A DNA stretch of 64,000 nt from Candidatus Purcelliella pentastirinorum (GTDB lineage Bacteria; Pseudomonadota; Gammaproteobacteria; Enterobacterales; Enterobacteriaceae), in NCBI RefSeq assembly GCF_003391335.1, contig NZ_CP028374.1, forward strand, positions 248,001 to 312,000. Direction: 5' to 3'. The notes below the pieces were generated by a model. That model did not search any database. It was not told where the DNA came from and was given only the letters and a program-made list of their open reading frames with translations. The first letter of the stretch is position 1. Every line of letters starts with the position of its first letter. Below, piece after piece: positions 2,663-47,211 of the stretch. The position numbers were made by a program, and so were the translations under genes.

Positions 2663-3796
2663 ATGAAAAAAGTAATAATAGCTATGTCAGGAGGAGTAGA
2701 TTCTTCAGTTTCTGCATGGATTCTTAAAAACAAAGGATATCATGTAGAAGGATTATTTATGAAAAATTGGGAAGAAGATGATAATAAAAATTATTGTAAT
2801 TCAAAAAAAGATCTTCAAGATACTGAAACAATATGTGAACAACTAAAAATTAAATTACACAAAATGAATTTCTCAATAGAATATTGGAATAATGTCTTCA
2901 AGAATTGTATTTCAGAATATAAATTAGGAAAAACACCAAATCCTGACATAATATGTAATAAAGAAATAAAATTTAAATTATTTTTAAAATTTGCATTAAA
3001 TAAAATGAATGCAGATTATATAGCAACAGGTCATTATGCAAGAACTAAAATAATAAATAAAAAATACTCTTTACTAAAAGGAATAGATAAAAAAAAAGAT
3101 CAAAGTTACTTCTTATATACAATAAAAAATTATCAAATTAAAAAAATATTATTTCCAATAGGACATTTAAAAAAAATAGAAGTAAGAAAAATAGCAAATA
3201 AACTTAATTTCATTAATGCAAATAAAAAAGATTCAACCGGAATTTGTTTCATAGGAAAACGTAAATTTATAAATTTTATAGAAAAATATATACCAAACAA
3301 AATAGGTAAAATAATAGACATAAACAATAATACCATTGGAAAACATAAAAATGCAATGTACTATACATTAGGTCAAAGAAAATGGTTAGGAATAGGAGGA
3401 ATAAAAAATAAAAAAAATAGTCCATGGTATGTAATAGATAAAGATATTAAAAAAAATACATTAATTGTAGACCAAAATAGATATACACCATATTTACAAT
3501 CAAAAAGTTTAATTTTAAATAAAATACATTGGATAAATAAAGAAAAAATCAATTTAAATTTAGAGTATGAAATAAAAGTAAGATATAACCAAAAAAGTAC
3601 AAAATGTAAAATTAAAAAAAAAAAAAATAAAGAAATTAAAGTTAAATTTAAAAATCCAATAATAGCAGTTACACCAGGACAATCAATTGTTTTTTATTTT
3701 AATGATATTTGCTTAGGAGGAGGTATAATAAAAAAAAATATACCAATAAAGAAATATAATATTAAAATTAACAATTATTCAAAAAATATAAAATAA
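2663..3796 (+). CDS. mnmA: tRNA-specific 2-thiouridylase MnmA
   Basis: MnmA puts sulfur on U34 of the tRNAs for Lys, Glu and Gln, using ATP and sulfur relayed from IscS/Tus proteins. The PP-loop motif SGGVDSS is at residues 9-15. The two catalytic cysteines are C98 (NPDIICN) and C195 (STGICF). The 377-residue length is close to that of E. coli (368). MnmG, encoded in this window, modifies the same wobble base. In enterobacteria the order is mnmA-hflD-purB; here hflD is gone and purB follows. The C-terminal 50 residues are Lys/Asn/Ile-rich, like other plus-strand genes in this half. Confidence 0.95.
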   Translation: MKKVIIAMSGGVDSSVSAWILKNKGYHVEGLFMKNWEEDDNKNYCNSKKDLQDTETICEQLKIKLHKMNFSIEYWNNVFKNCISEYKLGKTPNPDIICNKEIKFKLFLKFALNKMNADYIATGHYARTKIINKKYSLLKGIDKKKDQSYFLYTIKNYQIKKILFPIGHLKKIEVRKIANKLNFINANKKDSTGICFIGKRKFINFIEKYIPNKIGKIIDINNNTIGKHKNAMYYTLGQRKWLGIGGIKNKKNSPWYVIDKDIKKNTLIVDQNRYTPYLQSKSLILNKIHWINKEKINLNLEYEIKVRYNQKSTKCKIKKKKNKEIKVKFKNPIIAVTPGQSIVFYFNDICLGGGIIKKNIPIKKYNIKINNYSKNIK

Positions 3797-33021: not shown

Positions 33022-33061
33022 AAAATAAAAAATAAAACAATATTATTATAAGGAAATAAAT

Positions 33062-34198
33062 ATGACATGGAAATATTTAAGTGATAAAAATCCATGGAAA
33101 AATAAAAAAAATAAAAAAAATATTCTTAATAACGAAGAAAACAATATATTATTATTTCTCAAATATATAAAAAATAAAATTAATATTAACAAAAATAAAA
33201 TAATAAAAACTATAGTAATATTAATATTAAGTATATGGATAATTAATGGATTTTATATAATTAAAAAAAATGAAAAAGGAGTATTAATTAGATTAGGTAA
33301 ATTTAACAAATTAATAAATTACGGAATACATTGGAAAATAACACCAATAGATAAAATATTAATATTTGATAAATCAAAAATATATAAAATAGGTATTTCA
33401 AAAACAGAAATAACTTCTGATAAGAATATAATAAATATAAAAATTATTACAAAATATAAAATAATAAATCCCAAAAAATACCTATACACAATAAAAAACA
33501 TAAATAATTATATAAAAAACTCTATAGAATCAATTTTACTAAAAACAATAACAAATTATAACACTAAAAAAATATTATCTGTAAATAATAATACAATAAA
33601 AAATTCAATTTCAAACAAAATAAAAATTTTTTTTATAAAAGAAAATATAGGTATTAAAATAGAAAAAATTAATTTTAAATATATTCAACCTCCTGAGAGA
33701 ATAAAAAAACTATTTAATGATACTAAAATAGCTAGAAAAAATAAAAAAATATGTATAAATAATGCAATAAATTACGCAAATAAATTAAAAATAAAAACAA
33801 ATTATAAAATTATAGATATTATAAATAAATCAAAAATATATAAAAATAATATTATCAATAAAGCAGAAAAAGATATGATAAATTTTAACAAAATTCTATC
33901 AATATATAAAATATCACCCAAGATAGAAAAAAAAAAAATATATATTGAAACAATGGAAAAAATATTAAAGAAAACATCTAATGTTATAAGCAATAATAAA
34001 AATATATTTATATTACATATCAAAAATAAAAAAAATAATATCAAAAATAAAAAAAATAATATCAAAAATAAAAAAAATAATATCAAAAATAAAAAAAATA
34101 ATATCAAAAATAAAAAAAATAATACACTAAATAATACAATAAATCAAAGATCTTATAATATATCTCGTATTAATAATCGTAAAATTAGGGATAAATAA
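33062..34198 (+). CDS. hflK: HflK, SPFH-domain regulator of FtsH
   Basis: HflK and HflC form a membrane cage around the FtsH protease and modulate its activity. The N-terminus MTWKYLSDKNPWKN is the HflK type, one membrane segment lies at about residues 47-65, and the SPFH domain begins EKGVLIRLGKFNKL. The domain is heavily drifted toward Lys/Asn/Ile, but YIQPPERIKKLFNDTKIARKNKK keeps the family end of the SPFH region. The C-terminus carries five exact 7-residue repeats, listed separately. It has 378 residues (E. coli 419). A Shine-Dalgarno AAGGA lies upstream, and hflC starts 1 nt after the stop. Confidence 0.88.
   Translation: MTWKYLSDKNPWKNKKNKKNILNNEENNILLFLKYIKNKININKNKIIKTIVILILSIWIINGFYIIKKNEKGVLIRLGKFNKLINYGIHWKITPIDKILIFDKSKIYKIGISKTEITSDKNIINIKIITKYKIINPKKYLYTIKNINNYIKNSIESILLKTITNYNTKKILSVNNNTIKNSISNKIKIFFIKENIGIKIEKINFKYIQPPERIKKLFNDTKIARKNKKICINNAINYANKLKIKTNYKIIDIINKSKIYKNNIINKAEKDMINFNKILSIYKISPKIEKKKIYIETMEKILKKTSNVISNNKNIFILHIKNKKNNIKNKKNNIKNKKNNIKNKKNNIKNKKNNTLNNTINQRSYNISRINNRKIRDK
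34019..34123 (+). repeat. Five exact 21-bp tandem repeats inside hflK
   Basis: Five adjacent identical copies of a 21-bp unit, beginning ATCAAAAATAAA, encode (Ile-Lys-Asn-Lys-Lys-Asn-Asn)5 near the C-terminus of HflK. The unit length is a multiple of three, so copy-number changes keep the frame. It looks like a slippage- or recombination-generated array in a low-complexity tail. Confidence 0.95.
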
Positions 34199-41710: not shown

Positions 41711-42553
<843 letters not shown>

Positions 42554-42694
42554 TTATGTAAAAAATATATAAATATTATTTATTTAATCTTAAAAAAATA
42601 AAAAAAAAATGCAAGATAATTTTTTCTAAAATGTTCAAATAAAATATATTTTAATGAAATATATTATAAATTATTATTTATATATTTTAAAATT

Positions 42695-44557
42695 TTAGAT
42701 AAATTTAAATTTTTTAAGATAAATTAATAAGACAGATATTGCAGCTGGTGTTATACCAGAAATACGGGATGCTTGTCCTATTGAATAAGGTTTATATTTT
42801 TTAAATTTAAAAATTATTTCATTTGATAAACCCGGCATTTTATCATATTCAATATTATTAGGAATTAAAATTTTTTCACTATTTAATTGTCGTGCTATTT
42901 CTTTTTCCTGTCTAAGAAGATATCCTTTATATTTTATTTGAATTTCAACTTGTTCAGCTGCTTTTATATTATTTATCTTGAAGTTTATTTCTTTTAAATT
43001 GCATAATTGGTTAATAGTTATATTTGGTCTTTTTAATAATTTTTCTATAGTAGTGTTTTCTTTTATTTTAATTTTAAGTTGATTTTCAATATTTGAATTA
43101 AATGGAATTATTGTATTTTTAAATTTTTGTTTTTCTAATTCTATGTTTTTTAATTTCTTATTAAATTTAATCCATCTTTTTTCATTTATTAGACCAAATT
43201 TTTTACCAATATTAGTCAATCTTAAATCAGCATTATCTTCTCTTAAAAGAAGACGATATTCAGCACGAGAAGTAAACATTCTATATGGTTCAGTAATTCC
43301 ACTTGTACATAAATCATCAACCATAACTCCTATATAAGATTGACTACGTTTAGGAATCCATGGTTTCATTTTTAATATATATAGTGCAGAATTAATTCCA
43401 GCTAATATACCTTGAGCAGCTGCTTCTTCATATCCAGTAGTTCCGTTTATCTGACCTGCTAAAAATAATCCTTTTATATTTTTATTTTCTAAATTTGGTT
43501 TTAAATCAATTGGATCAAAAAAATCATATTCAATTGCATATCCATCATAAATTATATTTGCTTTTTCCAAACCTTTTATAGAACGAATCATATCTAATTG
43601 AATGTTATTTGGTAAACTTGTTGATATCCCATTAGGATAAACAAGATTACTATCAAATCCTTCAAGTTCTAAATATATTTGATGAGATTTTTTATTATAG
43701 AATTTAATTACTTTATCTTCTATTGATGGACAATATCTAGGTCCTAAACTGTTAATATTTCCATTATAAATGGAACTTTTGTGTATATTATTTTTTATAA
43801 TTTCATGTGTTTTTTCATTAGTTTTAGTTATATAACATGGAATTTGTTGGATTTCTTTTTTTTTGTCATTCATAAAGGAAAAAAATGGTATAGGAGAATC
43901 ACCTTTTTCCATTTTTAATTTATTAAAATCAATTGATTTTTTTTCAATACGTGGTGGAGTACCTGTTTTTAATCTTTTAGTATTAAAGGATAAACTTTTT
44001 AAATATTTTGCTAAAAGAATAGATGATTTTTCTCCAAATCTACCTGCATTATAACTATAATTTCCTATATGAATTTTACCGTTTAAAAATGTTCCAGTTG
44101 TTATTATTACTGATTTAGAAAAAAATTTTGTATCATTTTCCATTATTATTCCCTTAACGGAATAATTTTTTATAATTAATTTTTTTACAATTCCTTTTAT
44201 GATAGTTAGTTTTTTTTCTTTATTTAATTTTTTTATTATATTTTTTTTATATATATATCTATCTACTTGTGCTCTTGTTGCTCTTACAGCATAACCTTTG
44301 CTGGAATTTAAAGTTTTAAAATTTATTCCAGCATTATCAGTGGTATATCCCATTATACCTCCTAAAGCATCTATTTCTTTTACTAAATGTCCTTTTCCTA
44401 TACCACCTATAGATGGATTACATGAAAGAGTTCCTATTTTATTTTTATTTATAGTTATTAATAATGTTAAACATTGCATTTTAGATGATGATAATGCAGC
44501 TTCTATTCCTGCATGTCCTCCTCCAATTACAATTATATCGAATTTATTTTTAATCAT
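42695..44557 (-). CDS. mnmG: tRNA U34 carboxymethylaminomethyl-modifying enzyme MnmG (GidA)
   Basis: MnmG with MnmE builds the cmnm5 group on wobble U34, using FAD and methylene-tetrahydrofolate. The FAD fold [17 protein letters not shown] is near the start. [56 protein letters not shown] and [21 protein letters not shown] are signatures. The C-terminal helical domain ends with [22 protein letters not shown]. It has 620 residues (E. coli 629). In many bacteria mnmG flanks oriC, and the origin-like array begins just upstream of it here. Confidence 0.97.
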
Positions 44558-44616
44558 TTTTTATTTTTTTAATTTTAAATATATTTCTAATACTACATAC
44601 ATATTATTAATATATA

Positions 44617-44671
<55 letters not shown>

Positions 44672-44678
44672 CATTTAT

Positions 44679-44913
44679 TGTTAATAACTTTTGTTTTTGT
44701 TTAAGCTATATACTCTTGTTATTCATATTAATTGTTAATAACCTGTTAATAACTTGTTAATAACTTATCAATAATTGTTAATAACTTATCAATTATTGTT
44801 AATAACTTGTTAATAACTTATCAATAATTGTTAATAACTTATCAATAATTGTTAATAACTTGTTAATAACTTATCAATAATTGTTTAATAATTGTTAGTA
44901 ATTTGTTGATAAC
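44679..44913. other. oriC: Probable replication origin: helically phased iteron array
   Basis: TGTTAATAAC occurs exactly ten times, starting at 44679, 44733, 44744, 44755, 44776, 44797, 44808, 44829, 44850 and 44861; a variant, TGTTGATAAC, is at 44904. From the second copy on, start-to-start spacing is only 11 or 21 bp. TTATCAATA occurs four times exactly (44765, 44818, 44839, 44871) plus one variant. Together they form a 53-bp unit repeated from 44744, 44797 and 44850, the third copy decaying. The reverse complement contains TTATTAACA, one mismatch from the DnaA box TTATNCACA, and GTTA-A-TAAC is itself a small palindrome. The position next to mnmG, the adjoining ATT tract and the strand-composition switch support an origin. 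The binding protein is not known from this window. Confidence 0.75.
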
Positions 44914-44944
44914 TATTTTATATATTATGATAATATATTTTTTT

Positions 44945-45018
44945 TCGGCGAGGGAGGATTTGAACCTCCGACCCACTGGTCCCAAACCAGTTGCGCTACC
45001 AAGCTGCGCTACTCACCG
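44945..45018 (-). tRNA. tRNA-Pro, anticodon UGG
   Basis: A complete cloverleaf on the minus strand, starting CGGTGAG and ending CTCGCCG plus discriminator A. The anticodon stem ACTGG/CCAGT encloses the loop TTTGGGA, so the anticodon is UGG. The T arm is GGAGG-TTCAAAT-CCTCC. The 3' CCA is not encoded and must be added by a nucleotidyltransferase. UGG can read all four proline codons, so it could be the only tRNA-Pro. It is by far the most G/C-rich stretch in the neighbourhood. Confidence 0.97.
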
Positions 45019-45670
45019 TATCAGATTAATTTTATTATATCATATTTTATGATTAAATTTTTTTGTTATAATGTTTGTTTATTATTGTGATATTGTTAAA
45101 TTTATAATTTTATTTTTGACGTTATATATCATTTTATAATGTATTTATATTTATTTTTTTATATATTTATAATTTATTTTTATATTAGTTCATTAATTGT
45201 TTTCCCTAATATGTAAAATTTATTTTTTTTTAAATTTAATATTAAATAAAATTATTTTAATAATTTTATATTTGATTATTACATATAATAGGTTATTATT
45301 TTTTTTATAAAATTTTTTTGTTAAAAATAAATTTTTAAGATATAATATATTATTGTTTTTATTTTTTAAAATTTTATAATTAAAATGTTTTTATTTTTAA
45401 ATTTTATTTAATAATATTTATTTATTAAATTATATTTTTTTTTAGGTTTTTTGATGTAGTTAATATTTTTATTTATTTATGGTATTTTATTAAATTTTTT
45501 TATACATATTTAATTAATGTGATTATATAGTTAAAGATGATATTTTAATTATTTGTAATTATTTTGTTACATATTTTAATTTATTAAAAGGTATATTATG
45601 TTAGGTACTTTAATATAATTAAGTTTAAATTAATAAAATAGAATGTTTATGAGGTTTTAATTTATATTAT
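45019..45670. other. Non-coding T-rich gap between tRNA-Pro and ybjG
   Basis: About 650 bases, strongly T-rich on the plus strand. I find no open frame, RNA gene or convincing gene remnant in any frame. It lies directly beside the origin-like array and may contain further replication or promoter signals. Confidence 0.55.
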
Positions 45671-46273
45671 ATGTTCAGTTTTAATAAGGAAATATTTTTA
45701 TATATTAATGCTACTCCTAGTTCTTCTTTTTTATTGATAAATTTGTCTATTTTTCTTGCAAAATATATAATATACTCTATACCTATATTTGTAATTTATA
45801 ATTGGTTTTTTGTTAATGAATTTAATGTTTATTTTAAACATGAATTGGTTTTAAAGTCTATACTTGGGATAATTTATTCTTTATTTTATTCTTTGATTTT
45901 TGGTAAGATTTATCCATCTAATAGACCTGTTTTTGAAAATTTTGGGTATTGTTATTTTGTTGAACATGCATTCAATCAATCATATCCTAGTCATCATGGT
46001 TCTGTTGCATTTACTTTTTCTTTTATACTTATAAAATTACGGTTGTTTAAATGTGGTATATTATTTTTGTTAATGTCTTTTTTTATTTCTTGGTCTCGTA
46101 TTTATTTAGGATTACATTGGCCTATTGATATATTAGGTAGTATTTTTATTGGTTTTTTAGTAATTATTTTTTCAGATTTTTTTTGGAAGTTTTATAAAAA
46201 TTTTTTAATTTCTTTTTCTGTTAAGATTCACAATTTTTTGTTTTTTATATTTTTTAATAAGAATTTTTATTGA
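45671..46273 (+). CDS. ybjG: PAP2-family undecaprenyl-diphosphatase YbjG-like
   Basis: A membrane phosphatase that converts undecaprenyl diphosphate to the monophosphate, recycling the carrier for peptidoglycan and other envelope polymers. The three PAP2 motifs are [15 protein letters not shown] with the catalytic His, and [12 protein letters not shown] with the second His and Asp. [20 protein letters not shown] matches the YbjG N-terminus. It has 200 residues (E. coli YbjG 198) with about five membrane segments. BcrC is the Bacillus equivalent. The ORF ends where the qmcA reading frame begins. Confidence 0.9.
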
Positions 46274-46302
46274 TTCATTTTTTTTTTATTAAATATTTTA
46301 GG

Positions 46303-47211
46303 ATGATATTATTTATGTTTATGTTTATATTTTTTTTATGTTTTTTTATATTAGTTATTTTTTGTTCTATTATTAAGATTACTCCTCAAGGGTTTAAATG
46401 GACTGTTGAGAGATTTGGTCGTTATATTAAAATTTTTAATCCTGGTTTAAATTTATTAATACCATTTGTAGATAGGATTGGCAGGAGAATTAATATGATG
46501 GAACAAGTATTAGATATACCATCACAGGAAATCATATCTAAGGATAATGCTAATGTTACAATAGATGCTATTTGTTTTATTCAAGTTATTGATGCTGCAA
46601 AAGCTGCATATGAGGTTAGTAATTTAGAACGTTCAATAATAAATCTTGCTATGACAAATATTAGAACTGTTTTAGGTTCAATGGAATTAGATGAAATGTT
46701 ATCTCAAAGAGATAACATTAATACTAGGTTATTACATATAATTGATCAAGCTACAAATCCCTGGGGTGTAAAAATTACTCGTATAGAAATTAGAGATGTT
46801 AAACCTCCAGCAGAATTGGTTAAAGCTATGAATACACAAATGAAAGCTGAGAGGACTAAGCGAGCTGATATTTTAGCTGCTGAAGGAATTAGTCAAGCAG
46901 CTATTTTAAAGGCGGAAGGTAATAAACAATCTCAGATATTGAAAGCTGAAGGTGAAAAACAAGCTGCATTTTTGCAAGCTGAAGCTCGTGAAAGAGCAGC
47001 TTCAGCTGAAGCAACAGCTACTAAAATGGTATCTGAAGCAATCCTAAAGGGTGATTTACAGGCAATTAATTATTTCATCGCTCAAAAATATATAAGTGCC
47101 ATTAAAAAAATTGGTGAATCTAATAATAGTAAAATAGTTATGATGCCATTAGATACCACAAATGTTTTAGGTTCCATTTATGGTATTAATGAATTAATTA
47201 AAAAAAAATGA
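46303..47211 (+). CDS. qmcA: QmcA, SPFH/stomatin-like membrane protein
   Basis: QmcA (YbbK) is an SPFH membrane protein functionally linked to FtsH and HflKC. One N-terminal membrane segment, then the SPFH domain [53 protein letters not shown] and [18 protein letters not shown]. An Ala/Glu-rich coiled coil follows ([17 protein letters not shown] and on). From the ATG at 46303 it has 302 residues (E. coli 305). An in-frame TTG at 46270 would add 11 residues overlapping ybjG. Unlike HflK and HflC, this copy is close to consensus in sequence. Confidence 0.92.

Follow-up and report, generated by a model that had tools for sequence, protein, structure and literature searches.

In Escherichia coli, domain I of DnaA serves both cooperative recruitment between sites and the loading of DnaB, and DnaA boxes can also control transcription or titrate DnaA. 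E. coli DnaA without domains I and II still unwinds oriC in vitro (PMC5742627), whereas a DnaA that lacks its N-terminal part can neither load DnaB nor support viability in E. coli (PMC5448010); a bypass route for DnaB loading runs through PriC (PMC12122000). In E. coli oriC itself, a gap of 46 bp separates R1 from R5M and the low-affinity sites lie 2 bp apart, i.e., at an 11-bp pitch (PMC6727663), with all left-half boxes sharing one direction (PMC5742627). Through the minor groove, Arg399 of E. coli DnaA reads the TTA end of the box, an R399A substitution impairs box binding, and DnaA requires TTATT in the single-stranded DNA-unwinding element (DUE) (PMC5742627). For the DnaA-trios of basal unwinding systems, the preferred spacer between box and trio is 10 to 13 bp (PMC8287927).

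The locus that we compare with these systems belongs to "Candidatus Purcelliella pentastirinorum," a symbiont of cixiid planthoppers whose genome has been described as 481 kb in size, with 21.7% GC and 99.25% completeness (PMC12505427). The genome used here has 479,855 bp and a GC content of ~21%, and the window is the whole stretch of 64,000 nucleotides that was analyzed (positions 248,001 to 312,000). An initial annotation of the window had proposed that a helically phased array of repeats is a nonstandard replication origin and, if the organism lacks dnaA, the target of a different initiator. In our analysis, the chromosome very probably replicates from this array. Our main reading, to which we give a probability of roughly 87%, is that the locus (Table 1) is an oriC of E. 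coli-type descent in a gammaproteobacterial insect symbiont with a reduced genome, and that the organism's own DnaA opens it.

Table 1. Features of the candidate oriC and its surroundings, in window coordinates
Feature	Position	Strand	Remarks
mnmG (gidA), classic left neighbor of enterobacterial oriC	42695..44557	-	620-aa ORF; NCBIfam TIGR00136 mnmG_gidA, 861 bits (cut-off 525)
(TTA)n tract, proposed DNA-unwinding element	44617..44667	+	51-bp perfect triplet run, (TTA)17 microsatellite
Isolated DnaA-box-like site TTATTAACA, R1 equivalent	44679..44687	-	54 bp start-to-start from the array
45-bp gap, counterpart of the E. coli IHF-bend segment	44688..44732	.	Has TTTAAGCTATATA, conserved in the sister genome (alignment)
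Helically phased box array	44733..44913	-	17 units, 10-11 bp apart; read as R5M plus left-half DnaA-oligomerization region, amplified
53-bp higher-order repeat	44744..44914	-	3.2 copies; last unit partly degenerate
tRNA-Pro(TGG), beyond the array, at the place taken by mioC in E. coli	44945..45018	-	ARAGORN; same place in the sister genome

The origin part of the initial proposal is upheld by the GC skew, by the position on the mnmG side, and by a homologous array at a skew minimum in a second genome. Cumulative skew over the whole genome is lowest at 293,017 (position 45,017 of the window), ~100 bp from the array, and positions within 60 skew units of that minimum span 41,834 to 46,390 of the window. 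The sister species (G001; 483,447 bp), the one congener compared, has a homologous locus at 82% identity (E value of 7.5e-140) that contains tRNA-Pro, an array, the conserved TTTAAGCTATATA, a lone TGTTGATAAC, a shorter TTA tract, and mnmG. Between 420 and 460 kb of that genome, the skew shows a local minimum and reversal at 439,786, adjoining its array. Nor are similar arrays scattered at many loci: all close tandem pairs of TGTTAATAAC in the 479,855-bp genome (8 of 8) lie here, as do 10 of its 11 forward and 3 reverse copies.

The array itself was largely described correctly. Ten exact copies of TGTTAATAAC start at 44679, 44733, 44744, 44755, 44776, 44797, 44808, 44829, 44850, and 44861, against a shuffle expectation of 0.71 for the whole window (0 of 100 shuffles reached 10), and their spacing is as claimed, with a first gap of 54 bp followed by steps of 11, 11, 21, 21, 11, 21, 21, and 11 bp. 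A 53-bp higher-order unit starting at 44744, 44797, and 44850 was recovered independently by Tandem Repeats Finder at 93% match. Since the first two of these units (44744 to 44828 against 44797 to 44881) are 99% identical, the exactness between units partly reflects recent duplication of 53 bp. Beyond the earlier description, the array runs on as 17 contiguous units from 44733 to 44913, in which nine exact TTATTAACA boxes in the R1 orientation are interleaved with TTATCAATA/T elements (44765, 44786, 44818, 44839, and 44871) and followed by three degenerate copies (TGTTTAATAA at 44882, TGTTAGTAAT at 44893, and TGTTGATAAC at 44904), the last box of the run being TTATCAACA. Two statements about these sequences required correction. 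Of the five fillers, one reads TTATCAATT. The single mismatch to a DnaA box holds for TTATTAACA against TTWTNCACA but not against TTATCCACA, from which TTATTAACA differs at positions 5 and 6. Eleven sites at the locus (ten TTATTAACA and one TTATCAACA) lie one mismatch from TTWTNCACA, all in a single orientation, and no perfect match to it was found there. Elsewhere in the window, a perfect 21-bp tandem repeat of 5.1 copies, ATATCAAAAATAAAAAAAATA (34017 to 34148), lies inside an open reading frame (ORF) at 33029 to 34195 that resembles HflK, where it encodes a low-complexity repeated tail.

The geometry of the locus is that of oriC in related bacteria. When the regions upstream of mnmG in seven genomes were aligned by the mnmG start, the start-to-start distance from the R1-type box to the second box of the same orientation was 55 bp in two E. 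coli-like genomes of 4.3 to 4.7 Mb (G023 and G012) and in G019 and G009, and 54 bp in G011, in the sister species, and in the window. Given the 45-bp gap, the 11-bp pitch, and the one direction shared by all TTATTAACA boxes, we take the site at 44679 to be R1 and the array to be R5M with an amplified left half. The order of elements is also that of oriC, with mnmG adjacent, an AT-rich DUE on the mnmG side, and then the boxes. As in E. coli, mnmG is on the DUE side, the T-rich strand lies upstream of R1, R1 is 45 bp from the array (46 bp in E. coli), array boxes of one orientation stand 2 bp apart, and DnaA, DnaB, and DnaC are present. Unlike in E. coli, the boxes are TTATTAACA, 17 phased units replace a four-site low-affinity array, a TTA tract takes the place of the 13-mers, and DnaA is without domain I; the right half (R2, C sites, and R4), GATC, SeqA, IHF, and Hda are missing, with zero GATC sites between mnmG and the tRNA gene. 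The dnaA-positive reduced symbionts of the family (G011, G019, and G009) share the mnmG-side placement and the 54- to 55-bp spacing between R1 and the second box but keep boxes of the TTATCCACA/TTATACACA type, have no array, and encode a full-length DnaA with Arg399. The view that this design is more regular than enterobacterial oriC is thus borne out against the enterobacterial relatives examined.

The TTA tract is proposed as the unwinding element, a function suggested by its placement and composition. Its end and the R1-like box are 11 bp apart, and the T-rich strand, here the plus strand, lies on the 5' side of R1 and offers TTATT at every third base. The tract fits a permissive.A. trio pattern and not the 3'-GAT-5' consensus; its 11-bp spacer nonetheless fits the 10- to 13-bp peak reported for DnaA-trios. 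It resembles the basal unwinding system of boxes and DnaA-trios known from Bacillus subtilis and many bacteria in having a trinucleotide repeat 11 bp from a box, with a central A in the triplet when read on the strand that runs away from that box, and differs in its triplet (TAT/TTA) and in the long array that stands in place of a two-box module. This (TTA)17 microsatellite upstream of mnmG is shorter in the sister genome, and its copy number may vary between hosts.

The possibility that the genome lacks dnaA was rejected. A dnaA gene lies 109 kb from the array (G000:C1:183329-184363) and matches TIGR00362 at 464 bits; its usable ORF starts with MNSIYKSNINKKYKF and encodes 344 aa comprising domains III and IV only, so that the AAA+ and DNA-binding domains are intact. 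Equivalents of the single-stranded DNA-binding residues V211 and R245, the arginine finger R285, and the sensor-2 residue R334 (numbering by alignment) are kept. Between the two species, domains III and IV share 94% amino-acid identity (dN of 0.028, dS of 0.219, and dN/dS of ~0.13), and these substitution rates indicate that the two domains are under purifying selection. Domain I was not simply deleted. A relic of it, broken in place, is found just upstream of the dnaA ORF in both species (G000:C1:183070-183240 and G001:C1:65840-65998; ~3071 to 3240 in locus L020), out of frame with domains III and IV and interrupted by a TAA whose codon position the two species share. The relics share 63% amino-acid identity, with a dN/dS near 0.36 over 43 codons; from this small sample, the relic appears relaxed relative to domains III and IV. 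Since enterobacterial oriC is served by a DnaA with domains I to IV and domain I is broken here, we file the locus as an oriC variant and not as a plain E. coli-type system.

A further change affects the DNA-binding domain. In an alignment of 21 DnaAs, the Arg399 position is Lys in both members of the genus and Arg in the other 19. We considered whether this change coevolved with the C6-to-A change in the box, but Arg is kept in five readable DnaAs encoded beside TTATTAACA pairs in other bacteria, and Lys399 is therefore not needed to read TTATTAACA. We regard Lys399 as an additional oddity, and one that may weaken binding. Both species also have Ile at the S400 and R405 positions, and in the sister species the region of the recognition helix has two more substitutions, D433N and G431K. 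A Tyr also replaces His136, which makes the second contact with DnaB in E. coli, but we rejected this as a telling change since the relatives G040 and G059, whose genomes measure 3.4 to 4.5 Mb, have Tyr there too.

We asked whether the origin might instead be bound by an initiator other than DnaA, such as a Rep of the iteron type, a protein of the host, or some unknown factor, with DnaA on its way out or in another role. The iteron-like regularity, the off-consensus boxes, and a DnaA without domain I and without an otherwise invariant Arg399 all speak for this possibility, as does the fact that no dnaA was detectable in five small-genome relatives of the same family (G006, G007, G008, G030, and G033). 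Iteron plasmid origins of the Rep_3 type likewise have phased direct repeats adjoining an AT-rich region. However, the locus differs from them in being chromosomal, with oriC synteny and a core resembling a DnaA box, and no Rep gene was found, with no match to the Rep_3 initiator family (PF01051) in either genome. The E. coli arrangement of R1, a gap of 45 to 46 bp, and an R5M-type array is kept, and the low dN/dS of domains III and IV, at 94% identity between species, implies that DnaA is still used. Given this evidence, we consider the different initiator put forward in the initial annotation very unlikely.

Also weighing against another initiator, among the matches listed, is the occurrence of TTATTAACA pairs next to dnaA in unrelated bacteria. 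A scan of public genomes for tandem TGTTAATAAC pairs, run with no shuffled control pattern, returned at least 119 loci. Among the matches listed, 9 of 119 unrelated loci contained dnaA, each with its pair within ~0.9 kb of the gene, the usual neighborhood of oriC, compared to ~0.3 dnaA-adjacent pairs expected if pairs were placed randomly in 3-Mb genomes. Most of these nine loci also carry other DnaA-box variants. Distance to dnaA, the sole argument available, argues for a function of the adjacent pairs, and their occurrence in Clostridia, Negativicutes, Lentisphaeria, and Kiritimatiellae suggests that TTATTAACA is a widespread alternative DnaA box. Examples of such pairs lie at L111:3451, L124:5052, L070:1478, and L096:4734, among others. 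Dense clusters of GTTATTAACA were seen at L079:10-200, in a metagenome-assembled genome (MAG) contig labeled Rikenella microfusus, and at L137:5413-5460, in a Duncaniella MAG; these could be origins or DnaA-regulated sites, and no dnaA was found near them in the stretches fetched.

It is also highly improbable that, instead of being a replication start, the array titrates DnaA or regulates mnmG, the atp operon, or tRNA-Pro. The array does lie in the mnmG promoter region, and DnaA boxes play such roles in E. coli; however, a skew minimum falls at the array in both genomes, the genome holds no second array, and the oriC geometry is kept with an unwinding-type tract alongside. The sister array bears on a different explanation. 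It consists of four 21-bp units of TGTTAATAAC plus TCATCAATAAT, so that its higher-order unit is 21 bp as against 53 bp here, and its linker is TCATCAATA where the window has TTATCAATA/T; these interleaved elements, which have no firm counterpart, count against the main reading. A neutral minisatellite, born of slippage in a 21% GC genome and near the origin by chance, would suit the recent duplication of the 53-bp unit (99% identity) and the many AT-rich tandem repeats in the window, but is extremely improbable given a 10-bp box that does not vary among the ten copies of the window and the four of the sister species while linkers differ, a 10- to 11-bp phase that stays constant across the two higher-order units, and an isolated R1 box that keeps the ancestral spacing without being part of the tandem run.

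Returning to an oriC opened by the organism's own DnaA, the remaining replication factors limit how it could work. DnaB and DnaC are intact, and dnaA, dnaB, and dnaC are all present in the genome. IHF genes were not found in the genome, and a by-eye search of the 45-bp gap gave no convincing IHF site; IHF being accessory, its absence limits the likeness of the locus to E. coli and not its status as an oriC. The only HU/IHF-family gene has HU-alpha as its best match, although below that model's cut-off. SeqA and PriC were undetected in the genome, as was Hda, the PF00308 matches in the genome being only DnaA and a second ORF, DnaC. A SIS-domain match was considered for DiaA but by resemblance reads as GmhA. 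Both routes by which E. coli loads DnaB, through domain I and through PriC, are therefore missing here.

We propose that an ancestral oriC was cut down to its left half, i.e., mnmG, the TTA tract, the R1-like box, the 45-bp gap, and an R5M-type array, and that this array was amplified into a run of altered TTATTAACA boxes phased at 10 to 11 bp. DnaA(III-IV) would occupy the boxes along one face of the helix, and neighboring molecules would join head to tail into a filament through the AAA+ contacts of domain III. Bending over the 45-bp gap, probably by HU since IHF is gone or else intrinsic to the DNA, would loop the assembly back to R1. The TTA tract would then open, the DnaA assembly would bind its T-rich strand, and DnaC would deliver DnaB. 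Since E. coli DnaA without domain I unwinds oriC but does not load DnaB, the array plausibly replaces the cooperativity that domain I provides and not its route to DnaB. Dense phasing may in this way compensate for the loss of domain I and the change of Arg399 to Lys. The full proposal, that DnaA(III-IV) alone initiates the chromosome, with AAA+ contacts on a recoded, phased array offsetting both losses and DnaB arriving by another route, perhaps a contact between DnaC and DnaA, is one that we advance tentatively, at somewhat under even odds.

Altogether, the locus is very probably a DnaA-dependent oriC of the ordinary kind in an unusual form, a modification of a known system rather than the origin of some unknown initiator. 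What is new is the combination of a broken domain I, a changed Arg399, and a rebuilt box array, found in this genus only among the relatives compared. The other dnaA-positive symbionts compared encode a complete DnaA, and in further symbionts the protein has been lost altogether; the intermediate state is seen only in this genus among the relatives examined. If compensation is true, these symbionts would amount to a natural experiment on the purpose of domain I, namely cooperativity from site to site and recruitment of the helicase, and on the capacity of origin DNA to offset weakness in the initiator. The locus also bears on how DnaB can be loaded without domain I and PriC, the two routes used by E. 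coli.
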